A stretch of DNA of 29,323 bases from a virus. Each line of letters opens with the position of its first letter. Within the stretch, counting starts at the first letter, position 1. The position numbers were made by a program, and so were the translations under genes. The notes below the pieces were generated by a model, which searched no databases, was not told where the DNA came from, and saw only the letters and a program-made list of their open reading frames with translations. Location of the stretch: positions 1-29,323 of the IMG/VR virus record IMGVR_UViG_3300025141_000525. One strand, written 5' to 3'. Shown piece by piece: positions 9,343-29,323 of this stretch.

Positions 9343-9512
9343 AAATAACAGAAAAACAATGGAATTCATACAGAGATGTACAAGATTCTGGAGTAACAAA
9401 CATGCTAAATTTTAAACTGGTTAGCCAATTAACTGGATTATCCAGATTTCAATTAATGTTTATTATTCGCAATTATGAATCACTCATGAAAAAATATGAA
9501 GGTGAAAAATGA
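9339..9512 (+). CDS. Small conserved-looking phage protein
   Basis: Fifty-seven residues beginning MKITEKQWNSYRDVQDSG and containing VSQLTGLSRFQLMFII, which looks like a small helix-turn-helix (residues about 28-46). It overlaps its upstream and downstream neighbours by 4 bases each (ATGA), strong evidence that it is translated. Similar short proteins are common in phage early operons. Its function is unknown. It may be a partner of the enzyme encoded next. Confidence 0.7.
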   Translation: MKITEKQWNSYRDVQDSGVTNMLNFKLVSQLTGLSRFQLMFIIRNYESLMKKYEGEK

Positions 9513-10372
9513 TAGAATTTCCAGACAAAGGAGAAAAGCTAGTTGTAGGTGTCTCTGGCGGTAAAGATTCGACTGCTGTATGTTTATATTTGCAAAAACT
9601 AGGCTTTACCCCCAACTCATATAAAAGAGTATTTTGTGATACTGGATGGGAAAATGAATCAACGTATAAACACCTCGAGGATTTAGAGAAAATAATTGGT
9701 AAAATCGATAGGATAGAATTTGAGGCTCCCACCAGAGAAGACGATTTAGAATTTATTAACAGCATAGAAAATCAGCTAGGTTTTAAATCTCCAATGATCC
9801 GATTTATTATTTATTATGGTTATTTTCCAAGTGGAAAAAAACGCTGGTGTACCAGTAAATTAAAATTAAAACCACTTGAAAAATATCTAAACGATTTAGA
9901 GTTTATACCTATAAATGTTACCGGTATCCGAAAAGAGGAGGGTAACAAGAGAGCAAAAATGCAGGAGTGGGAATGGGCGGATCACTTTGATTGTTGGAAT
10001 TGGCGACCAATTATCGATTGGTCGGAATCCGATGTAATTAACATTCATAAAGAATTTGGTGTTATTCCGAATCGTCTTTATTTAAAAGAGCAGATGAGTA
10101 GAGTAGGCTGCTGGCCTTGTATCTATGCGCGAAAAAAAGAAATCGCTCAATTGGATAAAAACAGAATCGATATCATTCGCCAACTGGAGAATTATGTAAC
10201 TTCCAAGCATGATAAAAAGGCTACATTTTTCCGATCTGATATCAGAGGCTCCAGAGATCGCTCTATTGATGAGGTGATAGAATGGAGCGCCACCAGTAGA
10301 GGAGGAAACCAATTTGAGTTATTCGATCTACGTCCTCCAACGTGTCGAAAATGGGGTTTATGTGGAGTTTGA
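9509..10372 (+). CDS. PAPS-reductase-like (PP-loop ATP pyrophosphatase) protein
   Basis: A 287-residue protein of the PAPS reductase/DndC-like group. SGGKDS (residues 16-21) is the PP-loop that binds ATP or PAPS; RWCTSKLKLKP (112-122) carries a conserved cysteine; GIRKEE is at 139-144; and Cys201, Cys204 (MSRVGCWPCI), Cys279 and Cys285 (CRKWGLCG) could hold an iron-sulfur cluster or zinc. Cellular relatives reduce sulfate or add sulfur in DNA phosphorothioation. Phage members occur widely without dnd partners, and their substrate is unsettled. No dndDE or sulfurtransferase gene is present here. DNA or nucleotide modification is the natural guess given the methylase upstream. Confidence 0.85.
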   Translation: MIEFPDKGEKLVVGVSGGKDSTAVCLYLQKLGFTPNSYKRVFCDTGWENESTYKHLEDLEKIIGKIDRIEFEAPTREDDLEFINSIENQLGFKSPMIRFIIYYGYFPSGKKRWCTSKLKLKPLEKYLNDLEFIPINVTGIRKEEGNKRAKMQEWEWADHFDCWNWRPIIDWSESDVINIHKEFGVIPNRLYLKEQMSRVGCWPCIYARKKEIAQLDKNRIDIIRQLENYVTSKHDKKATFFRSDIRGSRDRSIDEVIEWSATSRGGNQFELFDLRPPTCRKWGLCGV

Positions 10373-12002: not shown

Positions 12003-12172
12003 CTTGTACACCTCGATGTTTTTATAACTACTATTATATAGGTGTATCTATACCTGTGTGTCAGTTTTTTTAGTTACCCCGTAGGTAACCGACCACCCTC
12101 CTTTCTCGCTAGCCATCTATCAACTACTGGACATGTTATAGTTGATGCTGGACAATAAAAAAGGGATTGGAC
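12003..12172. promoter_or_regulatory. Divergent control region with three dyads
   Basis: A minus-strand TATAAT lies at 12033-12038 with a CTGACA at 12059-12064 (spacing 20, weak). Dyads are AGGTGTATCTATACCT (12040-12055), GTTACC-CCGTA-GGTAAC (12073-12089) and ATCAACTA-12 bases-TAGTTGAT (12119-12146). GGACA occurs three times between 12129 and 12173. The region separates the basic regulator from the packaging and head operon and probably controls both. Confidence 0.45.
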
Positions 12173-12457
12173 ATGCAAGAGGAAGAAAGAGGGAGAGAGT
12201 GGAGAAATCGGAGGAGAGCCAAGTGTAAATCATGTGGAGCCTCTATTATCTGGAGTAAGACCAAAAATGATAAATGGATACCACTGGATTTAGATGTAGA
12301 GAGGAGAGCCATTTATTTTACGCGTAGATTGGTTATGGACTGTTTGATCTCTGGTAAACAGGAGGCAAAATTAGATAGAGTAGAAATCGTACCAACGTAC
12401 TCAATTCATTTTGAAACATGCCCAAATTCAAAGCAGCATAGAGAGACAAATGGATAA
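12173..12457 (+). CDS. Small zinc-binding phage protein
   Basis: Ninety-four residues from the ATG at 12173 (AAAGGGA upstream); a TTG two codons earlier is less likely. CKSCGASIIW near residue 19 and HFETCPNSKQH near the C-terminus give a split Cys-Cys / Cys-His zinc site, an arrangement seen in small phage proteins next to terminase genes. It overlaps the small terminase start by 8 bases and leads the late operon. Its role is unknown. Confidence 0.65.
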   Translation: MQEEERGREWRNRRRAKCKSCGASIIWSKTKNDKWIPLDLDVERRAIYFTRRLVMDCLISGKQEAKLDRVEIVPTYSIHFETCPNSKQHRETNG

Positions 12458-13079
12458 GGCCAGTACCAGAAAAAAATTATCTCCATCTAAAAAATTGGAG
12501 GTCTGGAACGAATACAAAAGAGGCGGCTGCTCTGTTAGATCCTTGGCTGCTAAATATGGCTGCTCTAAATCCACAGTATCCAATATCATAAAAGGAGAGC
12601 GTCCAGAAATTCCAACAGCTTTACCAGATCCTCCAGAGGTTAAGGAGAGTTTGAAACGAGCCAAAATTAACGAGTCTAAAGAGTTGGGGGTAAACAACGA
12701 TAAAAATTTAGATTTGGATGAGCCTGGCATTAACAAAAGAAATAATTTTTTATCAGATCCTTTAGAATTTCGGGAAAAAAAACTAGAGGAGATCGCTATC
12801 GATTTACAGACCAGCCGGATCTCTGGTCGGACGAGTATAATTCCACAGCTACACAGACTCCACCTATCGATACATGATGAGGTTACACAGATGAGAGAAT
12901 CAGGGGAAGGTGTGGAGGATGGTTTAGATCAAGCTGCTTTAGTCGCTACCATAGTTGGTACAATTTCAAAGTTGCCTCCAATGATACGACAAAATATACA
13001 AGATCAAATAGAGGATTTAGAGACAGGTAGAATTATATCATTCCCACAGACACAGATAGAAGATGAAGAAATTGGATAA
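12450..13079 (+). CDS. terS: Terminase small subunit
   Basis: A 209-residue protein starting at the ATG at 12450; an upstream in-frame TTG at 12411 would sit inside the previous gene. KKLEVWNEYKRGGCSVRSLA then AKYGCSKSTVSNIIKGERP (residues about 11-50) is a helix-turn-helix of the resolvase/terS type for recognising the packaging site. A long helical region for oligomerisation follows, then an acidic tail (PQTQIEDEEIG) that could contact the large subunit. The stop overlaps the large terminase start by 17 bases. The order and fold make the call secure even though small terminases diverge fast. Confidence 0.8.
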   Translation: MDKASTRKKLSPSKKLEVWNEYKRGGCSVRSLAAKYGCSKSTVSNIIKGERPEIPTALPDPPEVKESLKRAKINESKELGVNNDKNLDLDEPGINKRNNFLSDPLEFREKKLEEIAIDLQTSRISGRTSIIPQLHRLHLSIHDEVTQMRESGEGVEDGLDQAALVATIVGTISKLPPMIRQNIQDQIEDLETGRIISFPQTQIEDEEIG

Positions 13080-13611
13080 CCTAAAACGAATTTGTAATTC
13101 GGTGCTGGAGTTAGAGGAGAGAGCCTATAAACGTCCTCTAGATTTCGTGTCTTTTTGTCCTCCCCAGCTTCAGTTTTTACGCTGTACAGATAAGTATTTT
13201 ATTTTGAGAGGTGGTAATCAAATTGGCAAGTCATTTGTGGGAAGTGCAGAGGTAATTTATAGAGCCTCCTCACATCCAACAGATAAAAGCAGATCTCTAC
13301 ATCCGTACAAAAAGACACCACCACCACCAATTAGTATTTGGATCGTGTGCCATAGCTGGAGCCAGTCGGTAGAGATGCAAGAGCGAGTCTGGAATCTGGT
13401 AGCAAAAGACGATTTAGAGGATGGTACAGAATATGTATCTGGTAAAGGATTTCGCGGCGCTGGTACTCCAGTAGTACGGTGGAAAAATGGATCAGTAGTA
13501 AAATTTAAAACGACACAGCAAACAGGAGGAGGAAAAGGCACAGTAGCACTGGCGAGCGGTTCAGTTGATTTCGTATTAATCGATGAACCACCGCCGGCTG
13601 CTGTGTGGTGA
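13063..13611 (+). CDS. terL: Terminase large subunit, ATPase half (frame-interrupted)
   Basis: A 182-residue ATPase domain of the DNA packaging motor. Walker A is RGGNQIGKSF (residues 49-58), an adenine-binding QxxF-type motif PPQLQFL lies upstream, and Walker B is VLIDEPPP (171-178) with the catalytic glutamate. The frame ends at TGA (13609-13611) exactly where the conserved stretch after Walker B should continue as VW-SELVAR. The rest of the enzyme lies in the +1 frame. Skipping from TGG (13606-13608) to TGG (13613-13615) would give a normal enzyme of about 497 residues. Confidence 0.85.
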   Translation: MKKLDNLKRICNSVLELEERAYKRPLDFVSFCPPQLQFLRCTDKYFILRGGNQIGKSFVGSAEVIYRASSHPTDKSRSLHPYKKTPPPPISIWIVCHSWSQSVEMQERVWNLVAKDDLEDGTEYVSGKGFRGAGTPVVRWKNGSVVKFKTTQQTGGGKGTVALASGSVDFVLIDEPPPAAVW

Positions 13612-14563
13612 CTGGTCAGAATTGGTAGCGAGAACCCTTAGAAGAAAAGGTAGCGCTCTAGCATGTACATTTACACCAGTAGGAGTACCAGTAGACTATT
13701 TAAAAAAAATGGTAGATGATAAATTAGTAACAGATATACACGCTCCTCTGACAGTCAGAAATGTACAGCCAGTAGGATGTAAAAGGAGCCTGTTATCAAA
13801 TGCAGAAATAGAGGCCATTGGTCGGAGTTATTTGAACTTCGATAGATCGTGTAGGATGATGGGATCGTGGGAAGGTTTTACACCAGATGGAATTGTCTTT
13901 GAGCATTTTAGAGATGAATTAATTAGTGATGTAGATCCTAGACGTAGCAAGGATTTATCAAAAGGAGTTTGGAAATTATCAGTAGGCATAGATCACGGAT
14001 CAGCAGCCGGATCAGAATTCGCTTTGTTGGTGGCTACATGGCTACCTAGAGACAATAAAACCAAACCATACATATTTTGTATGGACGAGTATTACTCTGG
14101 AGCGGCTACAGCAGAGGTACATGCTAGAGGAATTTTAGCGATGTTAAGAAGAAATCGTCTAGATCATAAAATGATCGATCGATGGACTGGAGATAGATCA
14201 CACAGAGGCGATAAATATGGTGGTCGTATGAGTAACACAATGCTTAGAGCAGCATTTGAACATGTATTAAACTACCCTAGAGGCAGAGGATTTTATATAC
14301 ACACAGCCTATAAACCAGCCTACTCTGTTTATTATGGCTCCAGAGTACTATCAGAATTGCAAGGATTATCGAGATTCCAAGTTCATCCAAGATGTAAAAG
14401 TTTAATTAAGAGTTTTAAAAATTGGGCTATCCTGAAAAATGGTAGAATGGATAATAATTCTGAGTACAAACATGCTCTGGATTCGTGTCGTTATGCTACC
14501 ATGGCTCTAATAAATCCAACATACAGAACACCAAAGAATTCCAACCTAAAAATTATAAGGTGA
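13583..14563 (+). CDS. terL: Terminase large subunit, nuclease half (frame +1)
   Basis: The frame opens at 13580 after a TAA and runs to 14563. The ATG at 13583 has no ribosome site and encodes residues that do not fit the family, so homology effectively begins at SELVARTLRRKG (13616). FTFTPVG-like CTFTPVGVPVDYL is the coupling motif. The RNase H-like nuclease shows SVGIDHG, MDEYYSG, TGDRSH and a late Asp in HALDSCRYA, the acidic metal ligands that cut DNA at filling. Without the ATPase half this cannot package DNA, so either a frame-restoring event joins the two, the two chains act together, or the sequence carries a 7-base insertion. Confidence 0.85.
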   Translation: MNHRRLLCGDWSELVARTLRRKGSALACTFTPVGVPVDYLKKMVDDKLVTDIHAPLTVRNVQPVGCKRSLLSNAEIEAIGRSYLNFDRSCRMMGSWEGFTPDGIVFEHFRDELISDVDPRRSKDLSKGVWKLSVGIDHGSAAGSEFALLVATWLPRDNKTKPYIFCMDEYYSGAATAEVHARGILAMLRRNRLDHKMIDRWTGDRSHRGDKYGGRMSNTMLRAAFEHVLNYPRGRGFYIHTAYKPAYSVYYGSRVLSELQGLSRFQVHPRCKSLIKSFKNWAILKNGRMDNNSEYKHALDSCRYATMALINPTYRTPKNSNLKIIR

Positions 14564-14567
14564 TAAA

Positions 14568-16010
14568 ATGAAACAAGCACCAACTAAACCAGCCGGATTA
14601 GACAGCGAAACAGAATCACGCTGGTCTATGAATTCACTTCGATACAGATTGTTAACAGGCCAGTGGTCTGATGACTTAGAGGATGAATTAGGCCGACATT
14701 TTAGTTCTGAGCGGAGAGCCGTTATCGGTATTGCTGATATGAGTAGTAATGTATTTGCATCTGTTACCAAAGCATTAGCCAGCCTCTATACAGAGGCTCC
14801 ATCTATCCAAACCACAGCCCCAGCAGAGGAACTATTAGCCAGAGATGGAATCGTACATCGTGCTGGGCTGTGGAGTATAATGCAACGCGTCCAATTGTAT
14901 ACTGTAGGATTAAGAGAGATGTTTGTACATGTTGGTTTAAATAGTACCAATGATGGATTAGTTTACAGACCTGTTACACCAGATTGGATCTATGCTACAG
15001 CGCCAAGAAACGAGCCAATGGAGCCAAATTTTTTAATGGAATTACGATTACGGCTCACAGAAGATAATGATTATTTATGGACATACGATGTATACGATTT
15101 GCGAGATCTATCGAATCCAGAATTTAAAATCGTTACAGTGGATGGATCTGGAGAAATCGGAGAGGATGTATCTGATCAATTTGGCGGCTCTGCTATAGGT
15201 GCAGCTTATCCATATAGATTATCAGATGGTACACCTATTCTACCGTACTCCATTTATCATGCAGAGTTAACGGGTGATCGGCTCTTTGATAGCTATACTG
15301 GCTCAGAATTAGTGGCTGGCTCTTTGGTGAGCGCAGCCCTACATACGTATCTTGTACACCTCACCAGAGACTGCGCGTTCCCAATTCGCTACACGATGGG
15401 GTGCGATATTGCTGGCGGCTCTGTGTTTGATAGTTCTGGCTCGGCTCGTAGAATTGGGATACCAGCAGATCCATCTAGTATAATGTGTTTTACTCCAGAT
15501 CCAGAAATGCAAGGATTAGGACAGCCCATGTTAGGACAATTCAGTAATAACGCAGATCCAGAGCAGCTATTAAACGTTATAACCCTATATGAAAGGAAGC
15601 TGGCACAGATGCAAGGTGGAATTAATCCGGCTTCTGTACAGAAGATCTCTGGTGATCCGCGTAGTGGCTATGCAATAGCAATGAGTAAATCAGATATGCG
15701 AGATAATCAACGTAAAGCTATTCCGGCCATGGTTAGAGGTGACTCTAAAACATTGCAAATTTCATCTGTAATTTGTAATCGTTTTCTTGGTAAAAACTTT
15801 CCAGAGTCTGGATTCCAGATCAGTTACCATAGTATCCCTATGAACAAAGAGGAATTAACCAGCCAGAGAACCGATCTAATTGATAAAATGGCGAATGGAT
15901 TAATTACTAAAATAGATGCTATCCAATCTCTGTATCCAGATTTTAGTAGAGAGGAAGCAGCCGAATATTTACGCGAGATTAAAAGACAACAAATAGAATT
16001 TCCAGCTTAA
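14568..16010 (+). CDS. Portal protein
   Basis: A 480-residue portal, the dodecameric ring at one head vertex through which DNA enters and leaves. Position right after the large terminase, size and features fit: an acidic N-terminus, a central part with beta structure and clip-like loops, the helical stretch LNVITLYERKLAQMQGGINPASVQ typical of the portal stem/crown, and a C-terminal MNKEELTSQRTDLIDKMANGLITKIDAIQSLYPDFSREEAAEYL, as in SPP1-type portals. No single catalytic motif is expected. It starts 4 bases after the terminase stop. Confidence 0.8.
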   Translation: MKQAPTKPAGLDSETESRWSMNSLRYRLLTGQWSDDLEDELGRHFSSERRAVIGIADMSSNVFASVTKALASLYTEAPSIQTTAPAEELLARDGIVHRAGLWSIMQRVQLYTVGLREMFVHVGLNSTNDGLVYRPVTPDWIYATAPRNEPMEPNFLMELRLRLTEDNDYLWTYDVYDLRDLSNPEFKIVTVDGSGEIGEDVSDQFGGSAIGAAYPYRLSDGTPILPYSIYHAELTGDRLFDSYTGSELVAGSLVSAALHTYLVHLTRDCAFPIRYTMGCDIAGGSVFDSSGSARRIGIPADPSSIMCFTPDPEMQGLGQPMLGQFSNNADPEQLLNVITLYERKLAQMQGGINPASVQKISGDPRSGYAIAMSKSDMRDNQRKAIPAMVRGDSKTLQISSVICNRFLGKNFPESGFQISYHSIPMNKEELTSQRTDLIDKMANGLITKIDAIQSLYPDFSREEAAEYLREIKRQQIEFPA

Positions 16011-16024
16011 GAAAAGGAGAAGAA

Positions 16025-16807
16025 ATGGAGATCAAAAATATAGAAGGAATAGAATACATTTTAAAAACAGATGTAGACGATTTGGTGAGAGCCAGATTAT
16101 CGAAAGTTTCAGAACGTGCCAGAGCGGCCGAGAGCCGCGTATCTGAGTTAGAAATAGAGTTGGGGGAAAGCGCTGGATCTACAGCAAAAATATCAGATTT
16201 GCAATTACAAATTCAATCCTTAAACGGTGAATTAGAGCAGAGCCGATCTCTTTACAGCATCCACAGCACTATAGCAGATCATGGTTTTACAGATTCCAAG
16301 ATGAGGAAATTTATCAATTGGGAATATAAAGAAGCTATGCAAGACATACCAAAAAAAGAGCAGCCGGATTTAAATACATGGCTCACCAGTTTAAAAGATG
16401 ATCCATCTAAAGCATCGATAGCATTAAGACCACATTTAAAAGCACCAGCAGCACCACCAGCACCAGCAGAAGAATCTATAGAGTCTCCAGCGGCTCCAGC
16501 GGCTCCAGCGGCTCCAGCGGCTCCAGCGGCTCCAGTAGTGGAGACTATGGATAGAGCGCAACTGGTAGAACTGGCTAGAGCGGCTCTAGGTGTGAGCGCA
16601 GCACCAGCAGCACCAGCAGCACCAGCAGCACAGATACAGAATCACAGTACGTCCGTACTACCGAAACCAAAAACAGTAGCTGGTAACATTGTAGATAGAG
16701 CATTAGCAGATCCGACTGGTGAACTGTGGAGGAAGGGAATGGAGAGCGGAGAAATACAAAAATATTACTACTCCCAAAATACACCAGCAGCATTTAAAAC
16801 ACAGTAA
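16025..16807 (+). CDS. Scaffold-like protein with Ala-Ala-Pro repeats
   Basis: A 260-residue protein with a strong AAGGAGA ribosome site. Residues about 20-85 are a long coiled coil (SKVSERARAAESRVSELEIE ...), the middle is a low-complexity linker of AAP repeats, and the C-terminus (residues about 220-260) is a conserved-looking helix RALADPTGELWRKGMESGEI. Coiled coil plus flexible linker plus C-terminal helix, placed between portal and capsid, is the form of a head scaffold. The linker comes from two separate arrays: GCGGCTCCA five times (16490-16534) and GCAGCACCA three times (16598-16624). No protease domain is present. Confidence 0.65.
   Translation: MEIKNIEGIEYILKTDVDDLVRARLSKVSERARAAESRVSELEIELGESAGSTAKISDLQLQIQSLNGELEQSRSLYSIHSTIADHGFTDSKMRKFINWEYKEAMQDIPKKEQPDLNTWLTSLKDDPSKASIALRPHLKAPAAPPAPAEESIESPAAPAAPAAPAAPAAPVVETMDRAQLVELARAALGVSAAPAAPAAPAAQIQNHSTSVLPKPKTVAGNIVDRALADPTGELWRKGMESGEIQKYYYSQNTPAAFKTQ
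16490..16624 (+). repeat. Two tandem 9-bp arrays coding Ala-Ala-Pro
   Basis: GCGGCTCCA occurs five times in a row at 16490-16534, and GCAGCACCA three times at 16598-16624 with a partial copy. Both give AAP, but with different codons, so each array grew on its own. Confidence 0.9.
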
Positions 16808-16811
16808 AAAA

Positions 16812-16839
16812 AAGAGCCTCCTAAATTTAGGAGGCTCTT
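16812..16839. terminator. Bidirectional terminator between scaffold and fibre genes
   Basis: AAGAGCCTCCTAAA and TTTAGGAGGCTCTT form a perfect 28-base palindrome. On the minus strand it is followed by a T-run (the A-run at 16806-16813), making a strong terminator for the fibre operon; on the plus strand only TTAGCTTTTG follows, so it is weaker for the scaffold message. Confidence 0.85.
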
Positions 16840-16861
16840 AGCTTTTGTGGACTATTGTAGA

Positions 16862-18010
16862 TTAGATGCTTACAGCAATATCTACAGCTAGGTTTGAAGA
16901 AGAAATAATGGTGAGAGCGCTTGTAGAACTATAAATTACTTCGACATCTACTTTAGCACTATCAGAAGTACGCAATACAGCGATCTGTACCAATTTATAA
17001 CCGAGGTTATGAGTAACAGTGTAAGCTTGATCAGCCGTTAATGATACGTTGCTCTGGCTGTGTCGAAACTTACTCATATCAGTAGCAATAGAGTTACCAG
17101 TGATAGCTACACCAGTACCAGCTACATAATTACCAGCAATAGAATTACCAGTGATAGCAACACCAGTACCAGCTACATAATTACCAGTAATAGTATTACC
17201 AGATACAGCAATACCAGTACCAGCCACAAGAGATACTGCCAGAGTACCAGAAGAATTAGTAATACCGGTTCCAACAGTAAAGACATTACCATCAGTACGG
17301 AGCCAAGCAGCATCTGCAGCAAAAGAATTACCAGATAATGCTAAACCATTACCAGCAACATAATTACCAGAGATAGTATTACCAGATACAGCTACACCAG
17401 TACCAGCTACTAGAGATACTGCCAGAGTACCAGAAGAATTAGTAATACCAGTGCCAGCAGTAAATACATTACCATCACCACGGAGCCAAGCAGCATCTGC
17501 AGCAAATTCTCCAGCACCATCTAAAACAAGTCCATCACCAGCGCTAAAAATGTTACCAGCACCACGGAGCCAGTTTACATCTGCTGAGAAAACAGAACCA
17601 GCTAGACTAATACCATTCCCAGCAGTATAAGCATTACCATCATTTAGGTGAGCGAAATCAGAGGCCTGTGTAGGTGTGTCTACTTTTGCTATGTAGGTGA
17701 GAGAAGGATTAGCAGCAGATAAAACAAGGATATCACCCTTTTTAAAGCTTGCTGGAATACCATTACTGATCCAAGCTGCTAACGTTGTATACTGACTATC
17801 AACCGTTACATCTGTAATTAGCAGATTATCAACTCCTAACGCTCCATTTGTAACTGTTAGCATCGATTGAGAGCCAGCAGCGATAGAACTGATGTAACTC
17901 AAACCAGATACATCTGATCTACGTGCTACAGATTTATCATTCGCTCCAGCGCTATCTACTCGTAAATCACCAAAAAACTCCATAACTGGAGCATAATTAT
18001 ATTGTGCCAT
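16862..18010 (-). CDS. Repeat-rich fibre-like protein
   Basis: A 382-residue protein with AGAGGT before its start. Residues about 110-310 are a chain of short Gly/Ala/Asn/Ser/Val repeats (GNYVAGTGVAITGNSI and relatives), including a 61-residue block AADAAWLR ... SGNYVAG that occurs twice and a 17-residue unit repeated near the end. Such stretches form beta-helical or triple-stranded fibre shafts. The last ~70 residues (SLTADQAYTVTHNLGYKLVQ ... YSSTSALTI) form a separate beta module that resembles the whole 77-residue product of the next upstream gene. A tail or head fibre that touches the host surface is the best guess. The minus strand in a plus-strand head operon is unusual. Confidence 0.7.
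   Translation of the reverse strand: MAQYNYAPVMEFFGDLRVDSAGANDKSVARRSDVSGLSYISSIAAGSQSMLTVTNGALGVDNLLITDVTVDSQYTTLAAWISNGIPASFKKGDILVLSAANPSLTYIAKVDTPTQASDFAHLNDGNAYTAGNGISLAGSVFSADVNWLRGAGNIFSAGDGLVLDGAGEFAADAAWLRGDGNVFTAGTGITNSSGTLAVSLVAGTGVAVSGNTISGNYVAGNGLALSGNSFAADAAWLRTDGNVFTVGTGITNSSGTLAVSLVAGTGIAVSGNTITGNYVAGTGVAITGNSIAGNYVAGTGVAITGNSIATDMSKFRHSQSNVSLTADQAYTVTHNLGYKLVQIAVLRTSDSAKVDVEVIYSSTSALTIISSSNLAVDIAVSI
17229..17450 (-). repeat. Long internal repeats in the fibre gene
   Basis: AGAGATACTGCCAGAGTACC and flanking sequence at 17229 recurs at 17412, a 183-bp (61-codon) period. A further 51-bp (17-codon) repeat starts at 17094 and 17145. These give scope for copy-number change by slippage. 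Confidence 0.8.
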
Positions 18011-18047
18011 TTTAAAAACCTCTATTTGTATGTAGTGATGTTAATCA

Positions 18048-18281
18048 TCACCTATAATATACAGTACCAGATAGAGCAGTCGATAAAGCAATTGTGAACG
18101 AGCCAGAGGAATAGGTGATAGCAGCCTCTATAATGGCTCCTGTGGTTAATACAATCCAGATAGATGGATAGTAAGATAAAGAGTGAGAAATTGTTATTGT
18201 ATCGGTATTTAAAAACCCTACAGAGTGAGGAGTGAGATTGGCAGAGCCATTATTACCACCTCCATTTATATAGCCAGCCAT
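18048..18281 (-). CDS. Small protein matching the fibre C-terminal module
   Basis: Seventy-seven residues, with GGAGGT before the ATG that overlaps the upstream stop (TAATG). After a Gly/Asn-rich start, TITISHSLSYYPSIWIVLTT ... ITYSSGSFTIALSTALSGTVYYR follows the same pattern as the fibre C-terminus (VTHNLGYKLVQIAVL ... VIYSSTSALTIISSSNL), including the H-x-L-x-Y motif. It may be a free capping, decoration or adhesin domain working with the fibre. Confidence 0.65.
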   Translation of the reverse strand: MAGYINGGGNNGSANLTPHSVGFLNTDTITISHSLSYYPSIWIVLTTGAIIEAAITYSSGSFTIALSTALSGTVYYR

Positions 18282-18592
18282 TAGGGATAAACCTCCATAA
18301 CAAATATCACATTATTAGCAGTACCAGCCACAGTAGACACACACACAGAATCTACACCATCTGGTACAGTCTGAGAATAATAGAGACCAGCGGCAACTAT
18401 TGCAGAGTCTACAGCAGATCCAGCATCTCCATCACTGTAAGAAAATGAAACATATAATTTCTGGCTCTCACACATAAAGGAAATTCTTTTGACTGGATCT
18501 GGATAAAAAATTTCTAAAAAATTTACTGTGACAGTTGGAATTGTTTTATTAGGCTCTCCATTATCTAGAGCGTTTTTAAAATCGATACTCAT
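18281..18592 (-). CDS. First gene of the fibre operon, unknown function
   Basis: One hundred and three residues (MSIDFKNALDNGEPNKTIPT ...), beta-rich with a few cysteines and no membrane segment or known motif. The A-rich leader offers only GAGA as a ribosome site. Its stop overlaps the next ATG, so it is translated with the two fibre-like genes and probably makes a structural or decoration protein of the same appendage. Confidence 0.6.
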   Translation of the reverse strand: MSIDFKNALDNGEPNKTIPTVTVNFLEIFYPDPVKRISFMCESQKLYVSFSYSDGDAGSAVDSAIVAAGLYYSQTVPDGVDSVCVSTVAGTANNVIFVMEVYP

Positions 18593-18661
18593 TTATTTTT
18601 TTTCTCTCATTTTTAATAGTTCACATTTTATATATTATTATATAGAGTAAAAAGGTAAAAA

Positions 18662-19054
18662 ATGAGAAGAAGATTTCGACGTGATATTTTGATAACTACA
18701 TCACCAGTACCACCAGATTATTATCGTAAAAAATTCAAATATGAATCTGGTTTGACTCCATTTAATATCTGGTTTAGAGAGCAGCTAAAAAAGTGTGGTG
18801 GTCTTAAGGTATTTACAAAAGAGTCAAAAATAAAATATCCGACTGCTAAATGTTGGACATATAAAACTAACCCACAGACGAATTCAATTTATGATATCGC
18901 TAAATATTTTGGTACAAAATTTGGAGTCGACTACATGCAAATTGTAGCAGAGATTGAAAATTTAAAACTTCAAAAGGGTACTGATAAACCACTGAACATC
19001 TGTTCACAGCCAAAAAAAGGACGTTCAAAAGTAGAGGCTCAAATATCGCGCTGA
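18662..19054 (+). CDS. XRE-like regulator whose 3' end lies in inverted repeat arm B
   Basis: A 130-residue basic protein (MRRRFRRDILITT ...). FNIWFREQLKKCGGL (residues about 38-52) matches YSIWLKDFMKQHQI of the minus-strand XRE gene at 4528, and NSIYDIAKYFGTKFGVDYMQIVAEI is typical of the last two helices of a Cro/C1 domain. The C-terminal ~22 residues (LNICSQPKKGRSKVEAQISR) are coded inside arm B. The start ATG has a weak AAGGT. Its promoter must lie in the 69-base gap shared with the fibre operon. It probably regulates through the palindromes in arm B, in parallel with the 4528 gene at arm A. Confidence 0.65.
   Translation: MRRRFRRDILITTSPVPPDYYRKKFKYESGLTPFNIWFREQLKKCGGLKVFTKESKIKYPTAKCWTYKTNPQTNSIYDIAKYFGTKFGVDYMQIVAEIENLKLQKGTDKPLNICSQPKKGRSKVEAQISR
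18993..19006. promoter_or_regulatory. Operator-like palindrome B2
   Basis: TGAACATCTGTTCA is the same dyad as A2 at 4489-4502. Here it also lies within coding sequence of the XRE-like gene. Confidence 0.55.
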
Positions 19055-26491: not shown

Positions 26492-29323
26492 ATGGCTGAT
26501 ATATCACCAGACTATCAAAGAGGATTTCTTTTACCCTATAATCTAGGTGTACAAGATATTTTTTCCACAGAAAAGAATTACACAGAGCAGAGTTTAAAAG
26601 CTGGTACTGCAGAGGCTGCTACTGGTGTAAAACAGGTGGTGGAGTGCACTGGAGATCAATCCAGTACAATACAGATCCAAACCTTAAAAGGTGGTACAGC
26701 GGGTAGAGGTGCTGGATTTGGCTGGAAATTATCCACAGATACAGATTACTATGGAGCCAATAGCATAAATGCTCTAAATGAGTGGAATATGTTATCCTCT
26801 GGCTCTGTGGTAAATGCATATCAAGCGCCAGCAGCATTAGCGACAGCAGAAGGTGATATTTTGATATCCTATAAAAAAACCTCTGGTGCTGATAGTTATA
26901 TTTATGTAGCTAAAAAGGCCGCTGGTGCTGCTTCTTTTGCTGGTGGAGTGTTAGTAGTATCTGGTAGTTCTACCACATCAAATTACAGCTATCCAGCGCT
27001 GGTACAGCTATTGGACGGCTCTATCTTGCTGGTGGTGTGGAGGCAGTATGTTTTATCCTCTGCTGGCGCTCAATTATACGTCTATAGATCGGTAGATGCT
27101 GGAGAGAATTTTACGCTGGTATCCTCTGGAGCGCTGGATATACCAGTAGATTTATCCATCTACACATTAGGACGAATCCACCTTGGACAGTATGAGGGTC
27201 AAATCTTGCTTTTAGGTGAGTTGGTGAGCAACACAGGATCAAACTACAATATTGCTTTACAAGCTGCTTCTATCGATGCTGGAGCCACATTTACAACGAT
27301 AGGAACTACAGCAAATCATAATTTTGTTTATAGACCCTCCATAGTCGTAAATTCTAAAGGATTTGCGGTAACCTATATTTCAGGAGATACCAGCGCTGTA
27401 TTTTACCAATTACCTAATGCATTTACGAGCCTAAAAACCTCTGTATCTGGCTCCAGCACAGTTATTACATCGTACAGAGTAGGTAAAATTGTATCTAATG
27501 AATTTACAGATGGAGATCATACCTCTTGGATAGATGAGAGAGGCATGATTTACGCAGCATTTAAAAACACAGATCTGGATAATCATACAAATGGAGGTAA
27601 TGGAGGCTGGTGGCTACAAGCCTCCGCCGATAATGGATCTACATGGAGCCTGTTAGGTAATGGTACTGGTAATCCAGCTACAACGTCTATAGAGCCATAT
27701 GTATTTAGCATGAATACAGATAATTTATCTCTCTCTCTTGTATCTGCTGTGGCTGTACAAGGTGGTTTTTATTGGTTTTCAAATTTAGATACTACAGTAG
27801 CTAATTTAGATGCCTCTGTGGTGTATATTGCTCTATCTGGCTATTCTACTCTGACTCTACCACCAAGAGTAGCAGATGGAGACTTTAGAAAGAAATTTGG
27901 CTATGTAGCTACATATCTACCATTGGATCTACCAGATGTATCTGCTAGCTGGACTCTGACACAGACAGGAGGAAGCAGCTCTATCATCTCTAGTGGACTG
28001 GATATAGACACAGCAGCCACAGAGCATAGATACTACAATTACTCCTCTTTTCCGTCCTCTGTAGGTATTACAGATGTTAATGGTGCTATTGTTCGATTTG
28101 CGGTAACTTCCTCGGTTGGGGGTAATGTAGTAAATGCTGATAGGATGCTAGATGTACAGATAGGAGGTACTACATTAGGCTACAGAGTACAGTGTAGGGT
28201 AGATGGTACAAATATCCGTCTATATGATGCTGTAGCTACCAGCACACTAGCTACTGTGGCTCCAGCTGGTGGATACCTATCTACAAATGGTGTTGAGATC
28301 GTTTTAGCTATTGCTGGTGGTAAAATATCAGGATGGTATAGAGAAGATAATCAGGATAGCGCTAAAAAATGGCATGAAATAGGGATTAATATAACGTGTG
28401 CCAATGGAGGAGCGTTATCTAATCGGGTTCGATTTGGTCATTTTTCCAGCAGTGGAACTATAGAGAGCAGATTTAGAGAGGTGTGTATCTCTGGTGGCTC
28501 TGCTGTAGGTGCTAATATGGCCTCTGGTTTTATCAATCCAACCAATTTAGAAACCAAGGAATATCCAGAGTATGGAGTATATCAATACGTAGCAGAGGGA
28601 TTACAGATCACTACAAAAGACTCTCCAGCGTATCAAGGAGATACATACACGATACAGCCAAGATCTGAAAACGGCATAGAAAATCTATTTCTCCAGAGCA
28701 GCCCAACACCACAAAAACAATGGCGATCTAATAGTGTGACTTCTGGTACTGTGCCAGAGCAATTAATTCCACTGCTATTAGATCCAAACAATCAAGAGAT
28801 ACAATTTGATTCTGATCTTCTTGGTATCCACCTATCAAATATCAATTTCAGACAGTTTAAAATAGAAGGATATGATGTAGGTACTGGTAATTGGGTAGTA
28901 TTAGCAGATGTGGATACATCTGCTGGTAATTTAACAGCAGCATATACGAGACACGGTAAAACCATAATTGGAGCCGCTGGAAATTCACCATATTTCTTTG
29001 CAGATGAATTAGTAGATTGGATTGTAGAATTACCCGCTGGAGATGGATCACCAGTATTTAGAGAGATCGATAGAAATACAGAGGGTAGCTGGACTGGAGC
29101 CGGATCTAGTAGGAATTCTGTAATATCGTTTAAAGATACAGATGGAGGAGATCCAACCTCTGGAACGTGTCATTTTATACCAAACAAATCAACCATTGCC
29201 ATATCTCTAAATGGAGCCACCTACAGCGCTATAGCTGTGAGAATTCCAGCACAGTACACATTACACAAAGATTTTAGAATAGGCTCTTTTGTGTGTGGTG
29301 GTATCCACATAATAGCGCCACAG
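26492..29323 (+). CDS. Large tail protein with Asp-box (BNR-like) repeats, N-terminal part
   Basis: The frame is open from ATG 26492 to the right edge and continues at position 3 to 620, giving 1,104 residues in the closed circle. Asp-box motifs SVDAGENF, SIDAGATF and SADNGSTW (near residues 200, 260 and 378) follow S-x-D-x-G-x-x-(F/W), the turn signature of sialidase-type beta-propellers. The following part is beta-rich (lectin-like style) and mentions no catalytic Arg triad I can identify. It follows the tape measure, so it probably forms the tail tip or fibre that binds or trims a surface glycan. GAGG lies 10 bases before the start. Confidence 0.8.
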   Translation, partial: MADISPDYQRGFLLPYNLGVQDIFSTEKNYTEQSLKAGTAEAATGVKQVVECTGDQSSTIQIQTLKGGTAGRGAGFGWKLSTDTDYYGANSINALNEWNMLSSGSVVNAYQAPAALATAEGDILISYKKTSGADSYIYVAKKAAGAASFAGGVLVVSGSSTTSNYSYPALVQLLDGSILLVVWRQYVLSSAGAQLYVYRSVDAGENFTLVSSGALDIPVDLSIYTLGRIHLGQYEGQILLLGELVSNTGSNYNIALQAASIDAGATFTTIGTTANHNFVYRPSIVVNSKGFAVTYISGDTSAVFYQLPNAFTSLKTSVSGSSTVITSYRVGKIVSNEFTDGDHTSWIDERGMIYAAFKNTDLDNHTNGGNGGWWLQASADNGSTWSLLGNGTGNPATTSIEPYVFSMNTDNLSLSLVSAVAVQGGFYWFSNLDTTVANLDASVVYIALSGYSTLTLPPRVADGDFRKKFGYVATYLPLDLPDVSASWTLTQTGGSSSIISSGLDIDTAATEHRYYNYSSFPSSVGITDVNGAIVRFAVTSSVGGNVVNADRMLDVQIGGTTLGYRVQCRVDGTNIRLYDAVATSTLATVAPAGGYLSTNGVEIVLAIAGGKISGWYREDNQDSAKKWHEIGINITCANGGALSNRVRFGHFSSSGTIESRFREVCISGGSAVGANMASGFINPTNLETKEYPEYGVYQYVAEGLQITTKDSPAYQGDTYTIQPRSENGIENLFLQSSPTPQKQWRSNSVTSGTVPEQLIPLLLDPNNQEIQFDSDLLGIHLSNINFRQFKIEGYDVGTGNWVVLADVDTSAGNLTAAYTRHGKTIIGAAGNSPYFFADELVDWIVELPAGDGSPVFREIDRNTEGSWTGAGSSRNSVISFKDTDGGDPTSGTCHFIPNKSTIAISLNGATYSAIAVRIPAQYTLHKDFRIGSFVCGGIHIIAPQ
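29198..29323. repeat. Terminal overlap with bases 12-137
   Basis: These 126 bases are identical to 12-137. The next 11 bases outward match at 8 of 11. The repeat lies in the middle of a gene, so it marks circular closure or circular permutation of the assembly and not a designed terminal repeat. Confidence 0.95.

Follow-up and report, generated by a model that had tools for sequence, protein, structure and literature searches.

The window, i.e., the whole stretch of 29,323 nucleotides analyzed here (IMG/VR record IMGVR_UViG_3300025141_000525), contains a gene for the large terminase subunit TerL that is divided between two out-of-frame ORFs. The first and the last 137 bases of the window (1–137 and 29187–29323) overlap with 98% identity, and therefore the genome is apparently circularly closed and close to complete with a size of about 29.2 kb. 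No close phage was found in the collections of phages and plasmids, and no tRNA genes were detected in the window. The terL locus is single, as no second TerL was found in the window genome. It is flanked by the genes for a probable small terminase and a probable portal protein (Table 1); the latter was named by its position after terL, without a family match, and served as control gene. Further upstream, positions 9509–10372 code for a phage protein with a PAPS reductase domain (Pfam E = 4e-22).

Table 1. Features of the interrupted terL locus (window coordinates).
Feature	Start	End	Strand	Description
Upstream HTH protein, probable small terminase	12411	13079	+	Weak HTH matches; phrog_1206 terminase small subunit, E = 0.067
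terL ORF1	13063	13611	+	182 aa; N-terminal half of TerL ATPase with Walker A, Walker B, catalytic Glu
ATG in +1 frame	13583	13585	+	Overlaps Walker B GAT-GAA; possible internal start if the gene is split
7-base insertion TGGTGAC relative to unbroken relatives	13606	13612	+	Equivalent to TGGT-GAC-TGGT; placement ambiguous inside the TGGT repeat
Candidate take-off codon TGG (Trp)	13606	13608	+	Read from sequence; last sense codon of ORF1
TGA plus C, net +1 element	13609	13612	+	Read from sequence; TGA at 13609–13611; TGAC also in L060 and L139
Candidate landing codon TGG (Trp)	13613	13615	+	Read from sequence; product fits spacing of relatives; reading would restart at TCA 13616
terL ORF2	13613	14563	+	Rest of ATPase (motif III CTFTP) and RNase-H-like nuclease; +1 frame, SELVARTL...
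Downstream gene, probable portal protein	14568	16010	+	Intact

In ORF1, the Walker A motif reads GGNQIGKS and the Walker B motif VLIDEPPPAAVW in translation, and the stop codon follows just past Walker B. ORF1 alone matched the PHROGs terminase family phrog_2 with E = 1.5e-6 and the joined protein with E = 2.5e-14, and both ORFs are colinear with a single unbroken protein in relatives. AlphaFold2, run on the alignment of relatives, gave a confident TerL model of the joined protein (mean pLDDT 84, pTM 0.80), whose nearest solved structure was the TerL of phage D6E (Foldseek E = 4e-16). As modelled, the joined protein is a phage large terminase with Walker A/B ATPase and RNase-H-like nuclease in one fold, and the junction lies in a loop between the Walker B strand (170–174) and the helix 184–191.

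The original prediction had described an interruption at TGG-TGA-C-TGG with continuation in the +1 frame, and this was confirmed. A second contig (IMGVR_UViG_3300002514_001667, 6947 bp, possibly from the same sample) is 100.000% identical to window positions 12084–19030 including the site. Translation also gave the two predicted products, VW-SELVAR for a hop from TGG to TGG and VW-DW-SELVAR for a plain +1 shift. That the second frame has no ribosome site agreed with our inspection: no Shine-Dalgarno-like sequence was seen ahead of the +1 frame, nor ahead of the in-frame ATG at 13583, which the prediction had not mentioned. The TGA is followed by C, a weak termination context, and a conserved polyproline run is located just 5′ of the interruption. 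A homopolymer is absent from the site. RNA folding there was no lower than in the shuffled background (z about 0), and neither Rfam matches nor a recognisable nascent-peptide signal were found at the site. Reassignment of the stop codon was ruled out, because the interruption involves a change of frame and each of TGA, TAA, and TAG terminates other ORFs of the window.

Profile and protein scans for TerL relatives yielded about 240 matching loci. The unbroken set comprised 122 distinct cores, which formed 98 clusters at 90% DNA identity, counted here as lineages. The nearest relatives, L140 (58% identity) and L011 (55%), read DEPPPPQVWSELAAR and DEPCGPLVWSELVGR, respectively, i.e., VWSEL without the seven bases, and the spacing from the DE of Walker B to the next helix is constant in lineages with at least 40% identity. 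Compared to these relatives, the window carries the seven extra bases TGGTGAC, and the product of the hop would have exactly their length, whereas that of the plain +1 shift would be two residues longer. None of the about 98 unbroken lineages had an in-frame or +2 insertion at the site, and no other frameshifts were seen elsewhere in TerL genes. Portal genes from the TerL loci served as a control: of 115 distinct ones, none was frameshifted and one had a real in-frame stop. This stop is a TAA at about codon 423 of the portal gene of L070, in the context GAT-TAA-C; the stops in the portal genes of L123, L128, and L169 were alignment end effects and not breaks. An in-frame TAA in the context GAT-TAA-C also occurs at about codon 236 of the otherwise intact TerL genes of L012, L136, and L137. 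It is identical in contigs from two metagenomes, and the neighbouring genes use TAA as a normal stop.

The comparison with relatives proposed in the original prediction showed most of them to be unbroken and without TGG-TGA-C-TGG; this does not refute recoding, as two further lineages are interrupted. L060 (IMGVR_UViG_3300026187_002745) reads DEPPPPD-TGA-C-TTG-TGG and L139, together with L208 (IMGVR_UViG_3300030331_005188), DEPPPPD-TGA-C-CTT-TGG. Both carry a 4-base insertion with a net +1 effect two codons upstream of that in the window, giving GAC-TGA-C and GAT-TGA-C, respectively. In total, three lineages (the window with L002, L060, and L139 = L208) are interrupted at most 6 bases apart, compared to about 98 unbroken ones. 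In all three, the net shift is +1, TGA-C directly follows the candidate take-off codon, and take-off and landing codons can be read by one tRNA each (UGG/UGG in the window, GAC/GAC in L060, GAU/GAC in L139). A hop would also restore the family length in L060 and L139, and a plain +1 shift would lengthen the product by one or two residues across the lineages. When all of IMG/VR was scanned for DEPPPP-NNN-TGA, 40 matches were obtained, and the only terminases among them were L060 and L208.

Random insertions simulated near the site created a junction stop plus a cognate codon pair in 0.7% of the cases and simulated tandem duplications in 3.3%. In L060, the inserted bases form a perfect tandem duplication of 4 bp (GACT-GACT). 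Since such a duplication alone creates matched codons, the pair in L060 is, at the level of the sequence, not independent evidence for a hop; GAT-T-GAC of L139 is not a fresh tandem copy. Judged from the alignments, the clustering of interruptions in three lineages exceeds chance, and the two further lineages with the same phase, TGA-C, and a cognate pair shift the balance towards recoding. Of the two options in the original prediction, hop or insertion, the seven bases are indeed an insertion relative to L140 and L011, but a lone insertion, which had been regarded as the simpler explanation, now appears the less likely one.

A supported clade unites L060 and L139 with L030. L030 shares 93% DNA identity with L060, yet it is unbroken and lacks the insertion, whereas L060 and L139 share only about 69% DNA identity and have the insertion at the identical position. 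Around the insertion, 20 of 96 sites differ between L060 and L030, compared to about 6% elsewhere (Fisher p = 1e-6). This patch of raised divergence, at about 985–1135 of L060, is centred on the TGAC insertion and suggests that a short patch was exchanged in L060 or L030. The insertion may have been inherited once and lost in L030, or it may itself have been exchanged; parsimony fits both histories. In ORF2, the L060 branch shows 21 synonymous versus 1 nonsynonymous codon changes, indicating that the downstream frame is under purifying selection, which does not fix the age of the insertion.

The reading we prefer, with a probability of roughly 0.4, is that translational recoding, most likely a short stop-hop, underlies terL expression. 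Recoding in either form, hop or plain +1 shift, would together account for a little over one half of the probability. Ribosomes would arrive at UGG 13606 while UGA-C occupies the A site, and most of them would terminate there, releasing a 182-aa fragment without motif III and nuclease. In some, the peptidyl-tRNA(Trp) would leave UGG, slide 7 bases past UGAC, and re-pair with UGG 13613, so that translation resumes at UCA and a 497-aa TerL is formed. In L060 and L139, an equivalent 4-base hop could be made by tRNA(Asp) from GAC or GAU to GAC. The polyproline run upstream could slow the ribosome. A packaging motor requires few TerL copies, and therefore even inefficient joining could be enough. 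What weighs against recoding is that the site showed no significant RNA structure, SD-like element, or recognisable nascent-peptide signal, and that L030, so close to L060, is unbroken. More tentatively still, with the odds against it, the three sites could represent a natural and repeatedly evolved short stop-hop of 4 or 7 bases over UGA-C between cognate codons inside the TerL ATPase domain.

We infer that the two frames are actually joined in translation, and by a hop, which accounts for the cognate pairs as well as for the matching product length. The alternative form of recoding is a plain +1 shift of the kind known from the gene for release factor 2 (RF2), taking place at UGA-C. UGA-C is the stop context of RF2, and GAC would be the codon read in the +1 frame in each of the three lineages; the window thus resembles prfB in having UGA-C in the A site and a +1 shift. 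However, prfB has an SD-like element (AGGGGG) 3 nt upstream and a re-pairing P-site codon, both of which are absent from the window, where the upstream sequence is CCGGCTGCTGTG. The P-site tRNA(Trp) or tRNA(Asp) would re-pair poorly in the +1 frame (UGG to GGU, GAC to ACU), and the product, VW-DW-SELVAR in the window, has a length that does not fit TerL, being one or two residues longer than in every relative. We consider this variant improbable. Slightly more improbable is a split gene: after termination, translation of ORF2 would begin independently at ATG 13583, and the motor would be built from both polypeptides. The Walker B Asp is encoded by GAT in all three interrupted lineages, which creates the ATG in the +1 frame, but 53% of the relatives use GAT anyway, this ATG has no Shine-Dalgarno-like sequence and lies upstream of the stop, and the break would cut through the ATPase core immediately past Walker B.

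A serious rival, albeit an unlikely one, is that the insertions are non-programmed mutational scars at a hotspot and the contigs defective genomes. Such scars could be, e.g., repair footprints of a nuclease cutting the conserved Walker B coding sequence, or the result of short-patch recombination. The repeat structure of the inserts (GACT-GACT in L060, TGGT-GAC-TGGT in the window) and the divergence patch centred on the L060 insertion both fit this explanation, and the in-frame TAA codons in the L012 TerL and L070 portal genes demonstrate that damaged essential genes do occur in such contigs. Scars would not be expected, however, to be +1 with an immediate TGA-C and cognate codons in every event while no in-frame or +2 scars are found in about 98 lineages. 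The constraint on the downstream frame in the L060 branch and the L139 sequence, which is no fresh tandem copy, also argue against them, and no homing endonuclease was found near the site in the subset of window ORFs that was compared with Pfam and PHROGs. An assembly or sequencing artefact is very improbable: all sequences are metagenome contigs and L060 and L139 are each represented by one contig, but the window site recurs without difference in the second contig and contains no homopolymer, and three similar errors at one spot would be needed in a data set with no frameshift in 115 portal genes.

The best-known case of bypassing is T4 gene 60, in which take-off and landing codons match and a stop directly follows take-off (PMC5009743). 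Common to it and the window are two separate ORFs in different frames that encode a single protein, matched codons (UGG/UGG, and Asp/Asp in L060 and L139), and a stop immediately 3′ of take-off. In contrast, the gap of gene 60 is 50 nt and not 4 or 7 nt as in the window, L060, and L139; it depends on stem-loops and a nascent-peptide signal, whereas no fold below the shuffled background was detected at the window site; and it is neighboured by a homing endonuclease gene (mobA), none being found among the window ORFs scanned. Synthetic stop-hops function, but no natural in-frame stop-hop is known (PMC5009743); those in E. coli span 9 bases and stay in frame, whereas the hop in the window would be natural and out of frame.

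Bypassing has also been proposed for the terminase of Streptomyces phage Hau3 (phiHau3) (PMC5009743, a 2016 review). In its genome (JX182369, L287), we found two sites close to the ATPase motifs at which the reading frame changes and UUA lies between synonymous codons. The candidate hops are GGC-UUA-CUCC-GGU at Walker A (2611–2623) and UCU-UUA-ACGG-UCC just before Walker B (2921–2933). As in the window, cognate codons flank a slow A-site codon near the Walker motifs of a terminase gene. phiHau3 differs in that the slow codon is UUA instead of UGA, the hop spans about 10 bases, and TerL family and host are others; its bypassing is likewise a proposal. From these sequence comparisons, the window case is similar to T4 and Hau3 bypassing without being T4-type in every feature.

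If the short stop-hop is real, only a small fraction of initiations would yield TerL. The hop might also shield the conserved Walker B sequence from cleavage by a nuclease or keep TerL below the detection level of host TerL sensors (Avs). Very few genes with natural ribosome bypassing are known. A short stop-hop recurring in an essential phage gene would supply several compact natural systems for testing if a weak stop between matched codons is sufficient. It would also imply that virome terminases that look dead may be functional, and form a link to the bypassing proposed for the phiHau3 terminase.

Two further observations concern duplicated sequences. In L066, a partial copy (positions 2075–2410; also present in L067) of the TerL region from Walker B to motif III is located in the interval that separates terL from the portal gene. 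In the window, the minus-strand gene at 16862–18010, a glycine-rich probable tail fibre gene, contains direct repeats at 17084–17506 with a period of about 183 bases and shorter periods, which are 90% alike.
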